Positions 53,953 through 58,467 of a stretch of DNA of 64,000 bases are shown here, piece after piece (position 1 is the first letter of the stretch; each line of letters opens with the position of its first letter). The DNA comes from an uncultured Phascolarctobacterium sp. (GTDB lineage Bacteria; Bacillota; Negativicutes; Acidaminococcales; Acidaminococcaceae). The notes below the pieces were generated by a model, which saw only the letters and a list, made by a program, of their open reading frames with translations, had not been told where the DNA came from and made no database searches. The DNA lies in NCBI GenBank assembly GCA_949285135.1, contig CASDXO010000008.1:124001-188000 (forward strand). Reading direction: 5' to 3'. The position numbers and the translations under genes are program-made.

Positions 53953-54246
53953 TTTATTTCAGTGCTTTTTACTTGTCTTTAATTTTTAATTACTATTTTT
54001 TCACGTATAATCAGCACTTGAAAATATTTGTGTAAAATCCGTGTAATTGATTATTTTTCATCTATTTTTTAGCAAATAAAAAAAGCGGTTCTAACTCTGT
54101 AGAACCGCATATTTCCTTGGTGCCGAAGGCTCCTGTCTTAACAAGGAGCAAACAAGAAAAATAATTGAGATAAGCCGCGATGAATTAATTAAAAGGATAG
54201 CTTAATATTTTAATTTAGCCTATCTAAAATATTATTAATTTAAATT
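53953..54246. other. Gene-free boundary region with hairpins and a possible coding remnant
   Basis: No complete gene. It contains TTTGTGTAAAATCCGTGTAA (about 54029-54048, repeated GTGTAA), a terminator at 54078-54108, and a nested hairpin region with TCCTTG near 54113 and CAAGGA near 54139 enclosing GCCGAAGGC. It also holds an open plus-strand stretch ending in TAA near 54200 whose translation (LGAEGSCLNKEQ then ISRDELIKRIA) looks like a protein C-terminus without a start. An AT-rich inverted repeat (54204-54212 with 54225-54233) lies just after the STAND gene stop. Given the host genes to the left and phage genes to the right, the prophage attachment site is probably in here; this is inference. 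Confidence 0.45.
54078..54108 (-). terminator. Terminator downstream of the Mrr-STAND gene
   Basis: GCGGTTCTA (54085-54093) pairs with TAGAACCGC (54100-54108) over a 6-base loop. On the minus strand TTTTTTTATTTG follows. It lies about 140 bases after the STAND gene stop, so the transcript would have a long structured 3' end, or a small RNA may end here. Confidence 0.85.
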
Positions 54247-56637
54247 TCAATAAGCAAATAGTTTTTCTAACATTCTTTTTTGAACAAATTCATCTATATT
54301 ATTATTTTCTTCATCTATTTCTATTTGATTATCTAAATATTCGCTTATCTCACTTTTTATTACATCAGTATAATCATCTAAAGATATATCTTCATAAGCT
54401 TCCATTAATTTTTCTTTTAAAAAATTCCATTCTATATCTTCAATTGTTTTTAAAACTTCTTCATAACATTCATCTGCAATTGAATTATTAATTTCGTTGA
54501 TTAATGACGCATTCTTTATAACACTATACCCCTCAGATAAAATTTCTGAAGAATAATATTCTATTTTATCACTAATATATATATTATTATCTTGATAATC
54601 ACGCGCTGCATCTTCTAAAGTATCTGATATGATAGAGGCAACTTCTTGCATATCTATTTCATCTTTATATTTCAATAAAAACTTATATAATTTATTACTA
54701 AGAATATTAAACTCATCTAAAGAGATATTTTTAAACCATTTACGCAATATATTATAGTCCAATATAATTTCTTTTATATTATAAAATTCAAATATTTCTT
54801 TATCAAATACTAAAAAAATATTATATTTGGTGGCAGATATAAAAGTATCAGGATTATTATAATCAATCAATCTCCTACCTATATACTTGACTGTATTATT
54901 ATAAGTATGTGGATAATTTTTAAGAAAATCTAAAATTACATCTCTATATATATCGTTTTTAATTCTATATTTTGTAATAATATATATCAAAACACGTAAC
55001 TTTTCATATTTATCATTGAAATATAAATTTAAAATGGTTTGATTGATGGTTTTCTTTAACAATTCTTTTTCAAGTTCTTCAGTTGAATATAGTCTACACA
55101 TTTGTTGATAAGAAAATATAGATTTTTTTTGAAGTTCTTGTTCTACTTTATTACAATTTAATTCATTTTTTAAAAAATCATTAACTGACGGATTTATTAC
55201 TCCTATCACTTTTTCACCTGAAAAATCAATTATCTTAATAAACGAATTAAGTAATCTTTTCAAAACAGCATCAAAAACATTTAACGTCGTGTCAATATTG
55301 CTGCAATGACCTTGATTTAATCTAATATTAAAATATGTTTTTAATAATTCAACATCAACATGTATATTAGTAAAAGAATACAATGTAAGTAAAAATAATC
55401 TATCTTCAGCTTTAATACAATTATTAAATTCATTACCCCAAACATCTTGTGGATTGTTTAATAAAGACATAATGTAAGCAAAATATTCATTACTTTTAAC
55501 TTTTTTAAAAATATGTTTCATTGTAGCATATTCAATAATTCTAGGATTAAAATTACTATGTTCAACAATTTTTAAATAATTTCTATTATTTGATACTGCT
55601 TTAAAATAATCAATATTAAATTCCGGATCATCATTGTTTTTAAAATATAAATGGTTATATAAAATTCTACCTTTATCTAAAATATTTTGTTTATCTAAAT
55701 TAATTAACTTAATAGCAATACTTTCCGACTCTTCTATCTTTTTTAAATCGTTAATCAACCCCTTTGCTTCATTAAAAATAGTAATACGTGAATTTAAAAT
55801 TAATTTTTTATTTTTCCTTAATTTAAAATACTTTATCAATGCAATTAACTGCTTTGCATTATCATATTTCAAATTAAAATAATGCTGTCCAAAACAATCA
55901 TCTAAAAAAATTATTTCTTTTTCATCTGAATTCGGTGAAATAGATTTTTTAATTGCCGATATATCGCTGTCTGAAGAATATTTAACTTTATAATCCATTG
56001 CAGCATAATAAGCTACAAGCATTTTAGAAGTCATAGTTTTTCCAACACCAGGAGCTCCTATTAACATTAATATATTTTCTTTTTCAAGTATTGAAAGACA
56101 ATTTCTATATATATCTGTCTCTACAAAATATTTTATATCTTCCATAATATCTAATTGTAATATTTCACTATCCATAAAAACATCTTGATTTTGAATTAAA
56201 TTTAAAACTTTTGAAGAAGTTAACCATAATTTTGTATTTTTGTGCAAAACATCTATATTTTTATCATCCTCTAAGAAATCATTAATTTCTTTTAATGTTA
56301 TAACATTATCATAAGACTTCATATATGGGGAAAACATTTCAAATATCTTCTCAACATTACTATGTGTAAGTTCTTTACTACAAACAACAAAATAATCCTT
56401 AGGATTAAATCTCTCTACTTTTGGAATTTCATTTCTTAAATCCGATAAGAGTTTATTCACACTCGTTTTAGAATAATGCTTTACTTGAACAACTATTCTT
56501 TCTTCCCAATAATATAAATCTATTCCATTATCTCTACCTGAAGTATATGTCCGAAAATTTTTACCATATTTTTTGCACATTATATCTTTAACTAACTCTT
56601 CGAACTCTAAGTCATTTAAGTTATTATAATTAAACAA
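54247..56637 (-). CDS. Mrr-like nuclease fused to a STAND NTPase, candidate anti-phage defence protein
   Basis: 796 residues. Residues 1-120 form an Mrr-type restriction endonuclease fold: FEELVKDIM helix, GRDNGID40LYYW and VVQ51VK53HY supply the D-QxK active site. Residues about 175-300 are a P-loop ATPase: Walker A GAPGVGKT (194-201), Walker B EIIFLDD (241-247) and LILNSR (279-284, sensor arginine), as in STAND proteins. From 300 on the chain is helical, with no repeat I can name, and could be the sensor. Base composition is far more AT-rich than any neighbour, a sign of transfer. It has its own RBS (GGAG) and -10 after a terminator. This is the pattern of nuclease-STAND immune proteins (AVAST-like, but much shorter). 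The target is unknown. Confidence 0.85.
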   Translation of the reverse strand: MFNYNNLNDLEFEELVKDIMCKKYGKNFRTYTSGRDNGIDLYYWEERIVVQVKHYSKTSVNKLLSDLRNEIPKVERFNPKDYFVVCSKELTHSNVEKIFEMFSPYMKSYDNVITLKEINDFLEDDKNIDVLHKNTKLWLTSSKVLNLIQNQDVFMDSEILQLDIMEDIKYFVETDIYRNCLSILEKENILMLIGAPGVGKTMTSKMLVAYYAAMDYKVKYSSDSDISAIKKSISPNSDEKEIIFLDDCFGQHYFNLKYDNAKQLIALIKYFKLRKNKKLILNSRITIFNEAKGLINDLKKIEESESIAIKLINLDKQNILDKGRILYNHLYFKNNDDPEFNIDYFKAVSNNRNYLKIVEHSNFNPRIIEYATMKHIFKKVKSNEYFAYIMSLLNNPQDVWGNEFNNCIKAEDRLFLLTLYSFTNIHVDVELLKTYFNIRLNQGHCSNIDTTLNVFDAVLKRLLNSFIKIIDFSGEKVIGVINPSVNDFLKNELNCNKVEQELQKKSIFSYQQMCRLYSTEELEKELLKKTINQTILNLYFNDKYEKLRVLIYIITKYRIKNDIYRDVILDFLKNYPHTYNNTVKYIGRRLIDYNNPDTFISATKYNIFLVFDKEIFEFYNIKEIILDYNILRKWFKNISLDEFNILSNKLYKFLLKYKDEIDMQEVASIISDTLEDAARDYQDNNIYISDKIEYYSSEILSEGYSVIKNASLINEINNSIADECYEEVLKTIEDIEWNFLKEKLMEAYEDISLDDYTDVIKSEISEYLDNQIEIDEENNNIDEFVQKRMLEKLFAY

Positions 56638-56672
56638 TCATATCACTCCAAACAAAAGTTCTGTTATCTTTT

Positions 56673-56678
56673 ATTATA
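56673..56678 (-). promoter_or_regulatory. Candidate -10 element of the Mrr-STAND gene
   Basis: TATAAT on the minus strand 36 bases ahead of the start codon, placed between the lysis-gene terminator and the STAND gene. The -35 would overlap the terminator stem and is not consensus. This supports separate transcription from the phage late genes. Confidence 0.45.
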
Positions 56679-56690
56679 ATATAACACAAA

Positions 56691-56725
56691 AAGCCTGCCG
56701 ATACACCCAATGTATCGACAGGCTT
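56691..56725 (-). terminator. Terminator of the phage lysis/late operon
   Basis: A 14-bp stem (56691-56704 with 56712-56725, one wobble pair) is followed by TTTTTGTG on the minus strand, immediately after the stop of the spanin-like gene. Confidence 0.94.
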
Positions 56726-56728
56726 TTT

Positions 56729-57190
56729 CTATTTACTATCTTTATAAATATACCCTACAACTACCCCTGCTACAAAACCCCAGAAGGCATTTTGCCGAGC
56801 ATTTAGTTTTGCTTTACTTCTCTCCTGCTGCAGCTGCACCTTCAATTCGCTGCACAAGGTTGATACTTTCCTGATTTCTTCTGATGCATTCGTTAATGAG
56901 CGATTGGATTCTGTCAATTCGCTCTGCGCTTTCTGCAGCTGCTCTCTGGCTGCTTTCAAGTTCTGCATCAGCTCGGCTGATGGCGTTTTGAGCAGCGTTA
57001 TTTCTTCCTGCAGCATCAGCAATGTCACCTGCTGCTCCTGCAGCTGTTGTTTCAATGCATCCCACTGTTCTATCTGCACTGTTATCGTCTGCTGCTTTAT
57101 CTCGGAAGCATGAGTTTCCGATAAAGGCCAAAACCAGGATAACAAGCAAAGCAATCCACAAAAAGCTATTACTAGATTTTTTCTTAACAT
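56729..57190 (-). CDS. Coiled-coil envelope protein with spanin-like topology
   Basis: 153 residues. A signal-like segment (VIAFCGLLCLLSWFWPLSETHA) is followed by about 95 residues of glutamine/leucine/glutamate-rich coiled coil (LKQQLQEQQVTLLMLQEE, LKAAREQLQKAQSELTES). A C-terminal membrane segment (AFWGFVAGVVVGYIYKDSK) ends the chain. Two membrane anchors separated by a periplasmic coil recall unimolecular spanins that disrupt the outer membrane in phage lysis. That would make sense in a diderm Negativicute host. The ATG is 9 bases after GAGG. It lies in the lysis cassette after the endolysin and a 32-residue protein. The cysteine in the signal is not a convincing lipobox, so the spanin role is inference. 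Confidence 0.72.
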   Translation of the reverse strand: MLRKNLVIAFCGLLCLLSWFWPLSETHASEIKQQTITVQIEQWDALKQQLQEQQVTLLMLQEEITLLKTPSAELMQNLKAAREQLQKAQSELTESNRSLTNASEEIRKVSTLCSELKVQLQQERSKAKLNARQNAFWGFVAGVVVGYIYKDSK

Positions 57191-57194
57191 TCAT
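56814..57194 (-). CDS. Overlapping reading frame, possible second lysis/spanin protein
   Basis: 126 codons from an ATG at 57194, only 4 bases before the coiled-coil gene's ATG and sharing the same GAGG, but in another frame. The predicted product has an N-terminal membrane segment (FLWIALLVILVLAFIGNSC) and an alanine-rich helical remainder (ADAELESSQRAAAESAERIDRIQ). Embedded gene pairs are known for Rz/Rz1 spanins. However, a shifted Q/L/E coiled coil naturally reads as an Ala/Ser-rich frame, and T-rich signal codons stay hydrophobic when shifted, so this may be a shadow. The membrane protein topology and near-full overlap are the only support. Confidence 0.35.
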   Translation of the reverse strand: MNVKKKSSNSFLWIALLVILVLAFIGNSCFRDKAADDNSADRTVGCIETTAAGAAGDIADAAGRNNAAQNAISRADAELESSQRAAAESAERIDRIQSLINECIRRNQESINLVQRIEGAAAAGEK

Positions 57195-57227
57195 ATTTAC
57201 CTCATAAAAAGTGCATAAAATGAATAA

Positions 57228-57321
57228 CATCTCCATATTGTCGCTATGATCTGATTTTATTAGTGCATAGTTTTGTATACGTCACTCATAAAAACAGGCT
57301 CAGGAACGAAATATGGAGATG
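57228..57321. repeat. 12-bp perfect inverted repeat around a 70-bp spacer
   Basis: CATCTCCATATT (57228-57239) and AATATGGAGATG (57310-57321) are exact reverse complements. They flank the gene-free stretch between the 32-residue gene and the spanin-like gene; TTTTTT follows the right copy on the plus strand. It could be a regulatory stem in the late transcript or a remnant of an inserted element. No gene is visible between the arms. Confidence 0.7.
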
Positions 57322-57437: not shown

Positions 57438-57986
57438 TCACCCCCTTTGCCAAAAGTCTGTAATACCGCACGCAATAGCACGCGCGAAATCATCCAGGTT
57501 ATTCATGAGCAGCTGCGCATCATCATCATTACTGATGAACGCCATTTCAACCAATACAGCAGGCATAACAGTATTTTCCAATACACACAGATTAGGATTC
57601 TCTTTAACTTTCCTATCTGTGGTATGCAGCGTATCAACAACGCGCTGCTGGATGCACTGTGCCAACTCACCGGCCCTGCTCCATTTGTTATGAACCAGAA
57701 CTTCTGTACCATTAGGAGCAGAATCTGCTACAGAGTTACAATGCAGGCTAATAAAAATGTCTGCTGGCCAGTGATTAGCGGCATAGCAGACATTCGGATA
57801 ATCAGGTTCTTCACCATTTAAGTTATGAGATTGTAAGAGTTTTACTTCACAGCCTGCAGCTTCCAGGTATTGCTGCACCAGCTTACCGGCACTTAAAGCA
57901 ATGTCCGCTTCATTGATGCCAAACTTTTCATTTACTGTGCCTGGATCTACGCCAGGCATATGACCAGGATTAACAAACACTTTCAT
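57438..57986 (-). CDS. Phage endolysin, N-acetylmuramoyl-L-alanine amidase (Amidase_3)
   Basis: 182 residues made almost entirely of the zinc amidase domain. Metal ligands are seen in FVNPGHMPG (histidine 8), an early glutamate in KFGINEADIA, and SLHCNSV (histidine); the catalytic glutamate is in LVEMAFISND. It cleaves the amide bond between muramic acid and the stem peptide. There is no signal peptide, so export depends on the holin encoded just upstream. The ATG follows AAGGTGAAATAAA, one base after the holin stop. Confidence 0.94.
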   Translation of the reverse strand: MKVFVNPGHMPGVDPGTVNEKFGINEADIALSAGKLVQQYLEAAGCEVKLLQSHNLNGEEPDYPNVCYAANHWPADIFISLHCNSVADSAPNGTEVLVHNKWSRAGELAQCIQQRVVDTLHTTDRKVKENPNLCVLENTVMPAVLVEMAFISNDDDAQLLMNNLDDFARAIACGITDFWQRG

Positions 57987-57987
57987 T

Positions 57988-58467
57988 TTATTTCACCTTC
58001 AGCTTTCCTTCTTCTGCTTTTTCTGTCAGCCTTGCCAACGCGTTCCGGATAACATCCGGAATATATTGACCGTAACCGGCACGGTCAATATTCTCAACAA
58101 TGCTGCCAGCTTCATTTAAGGCATAAGCACAAATCGCCATTTGTCTTAAAATATGCATACCCATAGCTGTATCAATGCAGTTGCAAAGAGCAACAACAGC
58201 GAAAATCACAAACTTCTTTAAAATACCGCGGAAGCCTGTGCTACTGTCCCATTGTCCCGTTTTAAAGGCGGTGAACATGCCGGTAATATAGTCAACGATG
58301 CACAAAGCAATCAAAGCATAAATCATGCTGTCCATACCGCCGATGGAAACACTAAATACTAGGCCAATAACCGCGCCAATAGACATAAGATACTGCTCAG
58401 CTCCTGTCGGTTTTAAATAGATAAGGAAATCTACGATACTATCCTTAATTTGAATAAAGGTGTTCAT
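57988..58467 (-). CDS. Phage holin (toxin secretion/phage lysis holin family)
   Basis: 159 residues with two to three membrane segments (YLMSIGAVIGLVFSVSIGG, MIYALIALCIVDYITGM, KFVIFAVVALCNCID). The DYITGMFTAFKTGQWDS stretch is typical of the holin family found with Clostridia and Negativicutes phages. It forms the membrane hole that lets the amidase reach the wall. Its ATG overlaps the upstream tail gene stop (ATGA) and precedes the endolysin, giving a holin-endolysin cassette. Confidence 0.93.
   Translation of the reverse strand: MNTFIQIKDSIVDFLIYLKPTGAEQYLMSIGAVIGLVFSVSIGGMDSMIYALIALCIVDYITGMFTAFKTGQWDSSTGFRGILKKFVIFAVVALCNCIDTAMGMHILRQMAICAYALNEAGSIVENIDRAGYGQYIPDVIRNALARLTEKAEEGKLKVK

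Follow-up and report, generated by a model that had tools for sequence, protein, structure and literature searches.

The known systems closest to the protein reported here include immune proteins that couple an effector to a STAND NTPase. Avs5, the type 5 AVAST system, carries the PF20720 NTPase domain, senses phage through its variable C-terminus, and requires Walker A, Walker B, a conserved arginine and the C-terminal repeat region for defence (PMC12931631). Mrr_cat–STAND proteins with C-terminal repeats were described in 2022 from the hotspots of P4-like satellites by Rousset et al., and the gpA–gpQ hotspot of P2-like phages was shown to hold anti-phage systems (PMC9122126). SIR2–STAND proteins, also with nSTAND3, have likewise been described from phage satellites and from AVAST. 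In addition, a guilt-by-embedding approach has yielded a catalogue of PDCs, putative single-gene candidates most of which lack experimental validation (PMC12988326). Here we describe a prophage-borne member of one such family, PDC-S73, encoded in a 64,000-nt stretch of DNA (the window, G000:C8:124001-188000).

A PDC-S73 protein with Mrr nuclease and nSTAND3 domains

The gene occupies 54247..56637 and encodes 796 residues, as the earlier note had proposed; it lies on the minus strand, starts with TTG, is open throughout with no internal stop, and is present as a single copy in the genome. The product matches the PADLOC-DB model of PDC-S73 (PDLC05079) over residues 2-780, corresponding to model positions 4-744 of 752 (E 3.4e-110), and all 11 rows of our alignment A1 also match this model. 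Judged by its sequence, the protein belongs to this already catalogued single-gene defence candidate, from which it differs in nothing essential, being an AT-rich, prophage-borne member. A Pfam search of the N-terminal and NTPase regions, a check suggested in the earlier note, matched Mrr_cat at residues 6-69 (E 2.5e-6) and nSTAND3 at residues 171-332 (E 6.4e-36), both above the curated cut-offs.

Conservation was assessed in two alignments of 11 and 14 rows, which together comprise 24 different sequences including the protein itself. The Mrr-type PD-(D/E)xK nuclease domain (residues 1-150; 56188..56637, minus strand) has the Mrr-type signature D...QxK with its preceding Glu; D40, Q51 and K53 are invariant in both alignments, and E13 is invariant or nearly so. 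In the nSTAND3 P-loop NTPase (PF20720, residues 171-332; 55642..56127, minus strand), G194, P196, G197, G199 and K200 of the Walker A motif (194-201) are invariant in both alignments, as are D246 and R284, while D247 of the acidic pair (DD 246-247) is invariant in one of them and nearly invariant in the second. The active site and the STAND ATPase read from the sequence in the earlier note are thus both borne out. The NTPase is followed by a STAND helical and winged-helix part (residues 333-505; 55123..55641, minus strand), delineated from AlphaFold2 secondary structure and conservation, in which H360, P365, R366, W400, P483 and D487 are invariant. All STAND features are present, namely the P-loop, the Walker B acidic pair, the conserved Arg and the helical and winged-helix part after the P-loop fold.

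An AlphaFold2 model was built from 14 sequences; its mean pLDDT is 67, with high confidence in the nuclease and the STAND core and poor values, mostly under 50, past about residue 510. Structure prediction, also proposed earlier, delivered the two expected folds and left the C-terminus below pLDDT 60 on average. In a Foldseek search against the PDB, the top match was Avs4 bound to portal (8dgf, E 1e-8), and further matches were SAMD9, the AVAST5 filament (9nc9), EfAvs5 (9jap), CED-4, Avs3 and the plant NRC NB-ARC. Because the TM-scores were low, perhaps from differing domain orientations, these matches back the fold class and not close kinship. The VIA-align rows, in which EfAvs5 appears at Z 13.2, do not discriminate, as they are mostly generic AAA+ proteasome ATPases.

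The earlier estimate of about 500 unnameable C-terminal residues does not hold, since these include the STAND helical and winged-helix parts to about residue 505, leaving a presumed sensor of about 290 residues. This region (residues 506-784; 54286..55122, minus strand) is all-helical in the model and fast-evolving, sharing 13-14% identity with homologues as against 28-35% for the nuclease and NTPase. In Pfam, residues 333-796 matched no repeat family and no DNA-recognition domain. Folded alone, the C-terminus reached pLDDT 53 and gave no significant Foldseek match; hits to de novo repeats, TPR and HEAT-like structures were set aside, the best E being 0.2. We use the term sensor by analogy, since the C-terminal fold is poorly modelled and has no significant structural match.

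A tail motif, LEKLF (residues 790-794; 54256..54270, minus strand), is kept though residues 506-780 hardly align. Its pattern, [ILV]xx[LMIY]F, occurs within the last 25 residues in 21 of the 24 sequences, against 0.84 expected by shuffling and a maximum of 5 in 1000 shuffles, a comparison that somewhat overstates the significance because the pattern was picked after the alignment had been inspected. F794 is invariant in alignment A1. A sliding-clamp motif of the QxxLF type was rejected as an explanation because the first position is I or L, not Q, and an SSB-like tip because residues continue past the Phe. Longer relatives of 1,036-1,182 aa (L101:1745-5293, L102:1720-5148, L103:2194-5304) share the nuclease–nSTAND3 start and have a larger, different C-terminus without the tail motif, an arrangement that suggests sensor swapping.

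Distribution of the family and prophage setting of the gene

With the single protein as query, sequence-pattern searches returned no relatives from genome or viral contigs; an alignment query was required to retrieve them. The nearest one found shares about 43% identity over the N-terminal ~500 residues. Full matches, counted at E<1e-90 only because most of the remainder were brief hits to the P-loop of unrelated ATPases and were set aside, are rare and patchy, with 4 in 398 phylum genomes and 2 in 100 relatives, the protein's own genome being included in both counts. Homologues also occur in chromosomes of Bacteroidota, Pseudomonadota and Actinomycetota, on plasmids of several phyla and in viral contigs. 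In the tree, the protein forms a group of four (100/100) with homologues from the gut phage contig L062 and from two genomes, one of the same class (L002) and one of the same phylum (L032).

In one viral contig (L089), which the terminase (phrog_74/5751), portal (phrog_68) and nicking protein (phrog_91) genes mark as a P2-like phage, the PDC-S73 gene (32% GC in a 55% GC background) is flanked by the portal gene on one side and by gpA, the replication initiator, on the other; this locus is the gpA–gpQ hotspot of PMC9122126. One homologue adjoins a type I R-M operon (L079) and another an AriA-like gene (L084), and a named defence gene was confirmed beside only some homologues. The earlier note had set its proposal against the case in which homologues always sit in non-defence, non-mobile contexts; with plasmids, a P2-like phage hotspot and a type I R-M neighbour among them, they do not. 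On a Priestia megaterium plasmid (L061:8001-10338), the homologue is annotated as a pair of neighbouring ORFs (one of 228 aa, the other an ATPase) split within the NTPase, and is probably a frameshifted copy.

The left prophage end is marked by a 13-nt att core, TGGTGCCGAAGGC (54118..54130). Its second copy, C8:214577-214589, forms the 3' end of tRNA-Leu(CAA), a gene adjoined by a serine integrase (Resolvase/Recombinase/Zn-ribbon). Between the two copies are genes for terminase, portal, tail, holin and endolysin, which together with the integrase indicate a prophage of ~36.5 kb. The gene is the first one inside the left end, 117 bp from the attachment site. On its upstream side, all on the minus strand, are the prophage holin (57988..58467) and endolysin (Amidase_3; 57438..57986), assigned by profile matches, and overlapping Rz-like spanin candidate genes of the lysis cassette (56729..57236) with weak PHROG spanin matches. 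A terminator-like hairpin with a T-run (56688..56728, minus strand) closes the lysis operon and separates the gene from it. A promoter-like site, TCGGCA-17-TATAAT (56673..56701, minus strand; TATAAT at 56678-56673), is a consensus match only, of a kind common in this AT-rich region, and a ribosome-binding site, GGAGTG (56644..56649, minus strand), lies 6 nt 5' of the TTG. Beyond the gene come the att site and then a host GNAT gene, so that with the terminator upstream the layout is that of a single gene. Another terminator-like hairpin (54085..54108, minus strand) is situated past the att core, in host DNA, and would have followed tRNA-Leu before integration; by its position it is therefore most likely the original host tRNA-Leu terminator, now serving the cargo gene. 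The lysis terminator, TATAAT and ribosome-binding site claimed in the earlier note are thus present, while the downstream terminator most likely came from the host. At the other end, the prophage seems to supply its own hairpin and T-run 3' of the split-off tRNA-Leu (C8:214530-214576).

In a sister genome of the same genus, the gene is absent and about 1 kb separates the two host flanks. The tRNA-Leu of that genome (L096, G001:C17:18000-22500) is accompanied by a serine integrase remnant only and is not a clean empty att site, implying that more than one element has used this site. With its place inside an att-bounded prophage, its own transcription signals, its deviating composition and its absence from a related genome, the gene has the features of prophage cargo (a moron), as had been suggested, and we infer that it is expressed during lysogeny. 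Neither viral contigs nor phage records yielded close relatives of the prophage by which the cargo slot could be tested; the holin hits obtained, at family level, were too remote for this use. Domains, intact motifs, family membership and prophage position can all be read from the sequence itself.

The gene has a GC content of 22.3% (GC3 14%), compared with 42% in the neighbouring phage DNA and a mean of 41.3% (sd 1.6%, lowest 35.2%) in other segments of the same length, in agreement with the foreign composition noted earlier. As GC is below that of the own flanks in 21 of 23 homologues, a low GC content is the rule in the family and no peculiarity of this phage.

The same prophage carries, near the integrase and outside the window, a four-gene operon (G000:C8:206729-211853; L072:11729-16853) encoding an N6-adenine methyltransferase, a protein of 783 aa carrying two GHKL ATPase domains (HATPase_c_3 and HATPase_c), a REC-like protein and an HNH nuclease (PtuB-like). 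No PADLOC model matched the GHKL and REC proteins. A module of GHKL, REC-sized protein, HNH and methylase recurs, with the methylase last, on Bacteroides and Salipiger plasmids (L107, L108), GHKL relatives occur in 97 plasmid records, and the operon may be a defence system of an undescribed kind, restriction- or phosphorelay-like. Directly after it lies a gene for a Fic protein (G000:C8:211869-212612; L072:16869-17612) that matches PADLOC PDC-S04 (E 2e-42). Taking the cargo gene, the operon and the Fic gene together, the prophage holds at least three defence-like modules, located at both ends.

Proposed immune function and alternative explanations

The protein is probably a single-protein NLR-like anti-phage immune receptor of the PDC-S73 family, carried as lysogenic-conversion cargo. 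An immune role is predicted with good support: from the family match, the invariant catalytic and nucleotide-binding residues and the structural matches to Avs proteins, SAMD9, CED-4 and NB-ARC; the fast divergence of the C-terminus, as in Avs5 with its phage-sensing variable C-terminus; and the patchy distribution of homologues, found on plasmids, beside defence genes and in a phage hotspot. Anti-phage activity would on this proposal involve oligomerisation, DNA cleavage and an abortive outcome. In the resting state, the STAND core would hold nucleotide and the nuclease would be inactive. Recognition of a product of the invading phage by the helical, fast-evolving C-terminus would then allow the STAND module to swap nucleotide and oligomerise via K200, D246 and R284, and the oligomer would cluster the Mrr-type nuclease domains (E13/D40/Q51/K53), which could cut DNA and stop the phage, with the host cell probably damaged or killed. 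We know of no tested member of the PDC-S73 family, and the literature searched described no functional tests of PDC-S73 or Mrr–STAND proteins.

The main rival to the immune reading is a DNA-sensing, type IV-like restriction enzyme, in which the C-terminus would bind modified or foreign DNA directly, with no phage-protein trigger, and, as in McrBC, the NTPase would drive assembly or movement. Classical Mrr proteins are modification-dependent, and the presence of an Mrr-type domain agrees with such a function, as does the occurrence of the same N-terminal module in Aga and TIR proteins, which indicates that the module is not tied to one sensing mode. We consider this explanation improbable, because the NTPase is an nSTAND3 domain with structural matches to Avs4, Avs5, CED-4 and NB-ARC, and because the C-terminus diverges fast and matches no DNA-recognition domain in Pfam.

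It is very improbable that nuclease and STAND parts have here been built into a non-defence prophage gene, such as one for prophage maintenance or a moron contributing to host fitness: homologues from at least four phyla, carried by chromosomes, plasmids or unrelated phages, indicate a role that is not tied to this phage, although the site itself, following the lysis cassette at the att end, is one where many unrelated morons are found. The extreme AT content, with GC3 at 14%, and the TTG start could also point to a decayed relic without present function. With a full-length frame, intact motifs, a ribosome-binding site, the conserved tail motif and an AT-richness shared by most homologues, we find such decay hardly believable.

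Within the immune reading, PDC-S73 may constitute a mechanistically distinct, compact NLR-like class, defined jointly by the Mrr nuclease, the nSTAND3 core, a non-TPR sensor of ~290 residues and a distinct tail and trigger, a suggestion that we put forward tentatively and with considerable doubt. The amphipathic [ILV]xx[LMIY]F tail might then serve as an autoinhibitory latch or assembly plug, such a role being a guess, and the trigger would, as part of the same joint claim, be something other than terminase, portal or the jumbo-phage protein JADA. The catalogued candidate is now placed in two unrelated temperate phages, in one of them at a known defence hotspot, which makes the case for inter-phage defence stronger. 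As a single compact protein with its catalytic, nucleotide-binding and tail residues mapped, it also makes the family directly testable.

Comparison with known systems

With Avs5, the protein shares the NTPase family PF20720, similar total length (833 residues for Avs5 in 9jap), a variable helical C-terminus and a structural match (9nc9, 9jap), and the NTPase elements corresponding to those required in Avs5 are conserved. The effector differs, being an Mrr-type nuclease instead of the SIR2 of Avs5 (no SIR2 match in Pfam). Avs5 has C-terminal TPR/Sel1/PPR-like repeats; no Pfam repeat family was matched here, in a C-terminus whose models are poor. No Avs-named PADLOC model was among the matches at E<=1. 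Since Avs5 is about equally long, the short length, which the earlier note took as unusual among nuclease–STAND AVAST proteins, is not special. Avs4 has the same nuclease–STAND order and matches at the fold level only (8dgf); its chain is about 1,540 residues in 8dgf versus 796, and its C-terminal portal sensor is not alignable.

The N-terminal nuclease module of ~150 aa is also found in the Argonaute-associated Aga_TIR-PNTD1-PNTD2 and Aga_REase-TIR proteins of PADLOC (E 2e-22), although the Aga example protein (642 aa, with a TIR domain) lacks both the STAND NTPase and the PDC-S73 C-terminus. On rhizobial plasmids, a TIR protein covered by Aga models in PADLOC (L106:3995-5923) begins with the same module, in which the catalytic D and the QxK are retained, implying module exchange between immune systems.

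The Mrr_cat–STAND proteins of P4 hotspots likewise combine Mrr_cat, STAND and a C-terminal part and reside on phage-related elements, but are described with C-terminal repeats, and the likeness to PDC-S73 is seen in the domain description. With nuclease–STAND proteins known from Avs4 and these hotspots and the exact family catalogued, the protein is of a known kind, and the novelty claimed earlier is weakened; what is new relative to these systems is the second PDC-S73 copy in a P2-like phage hotspot, the conserved C-terminal tail motif and the presumed ~290-residue sensor.
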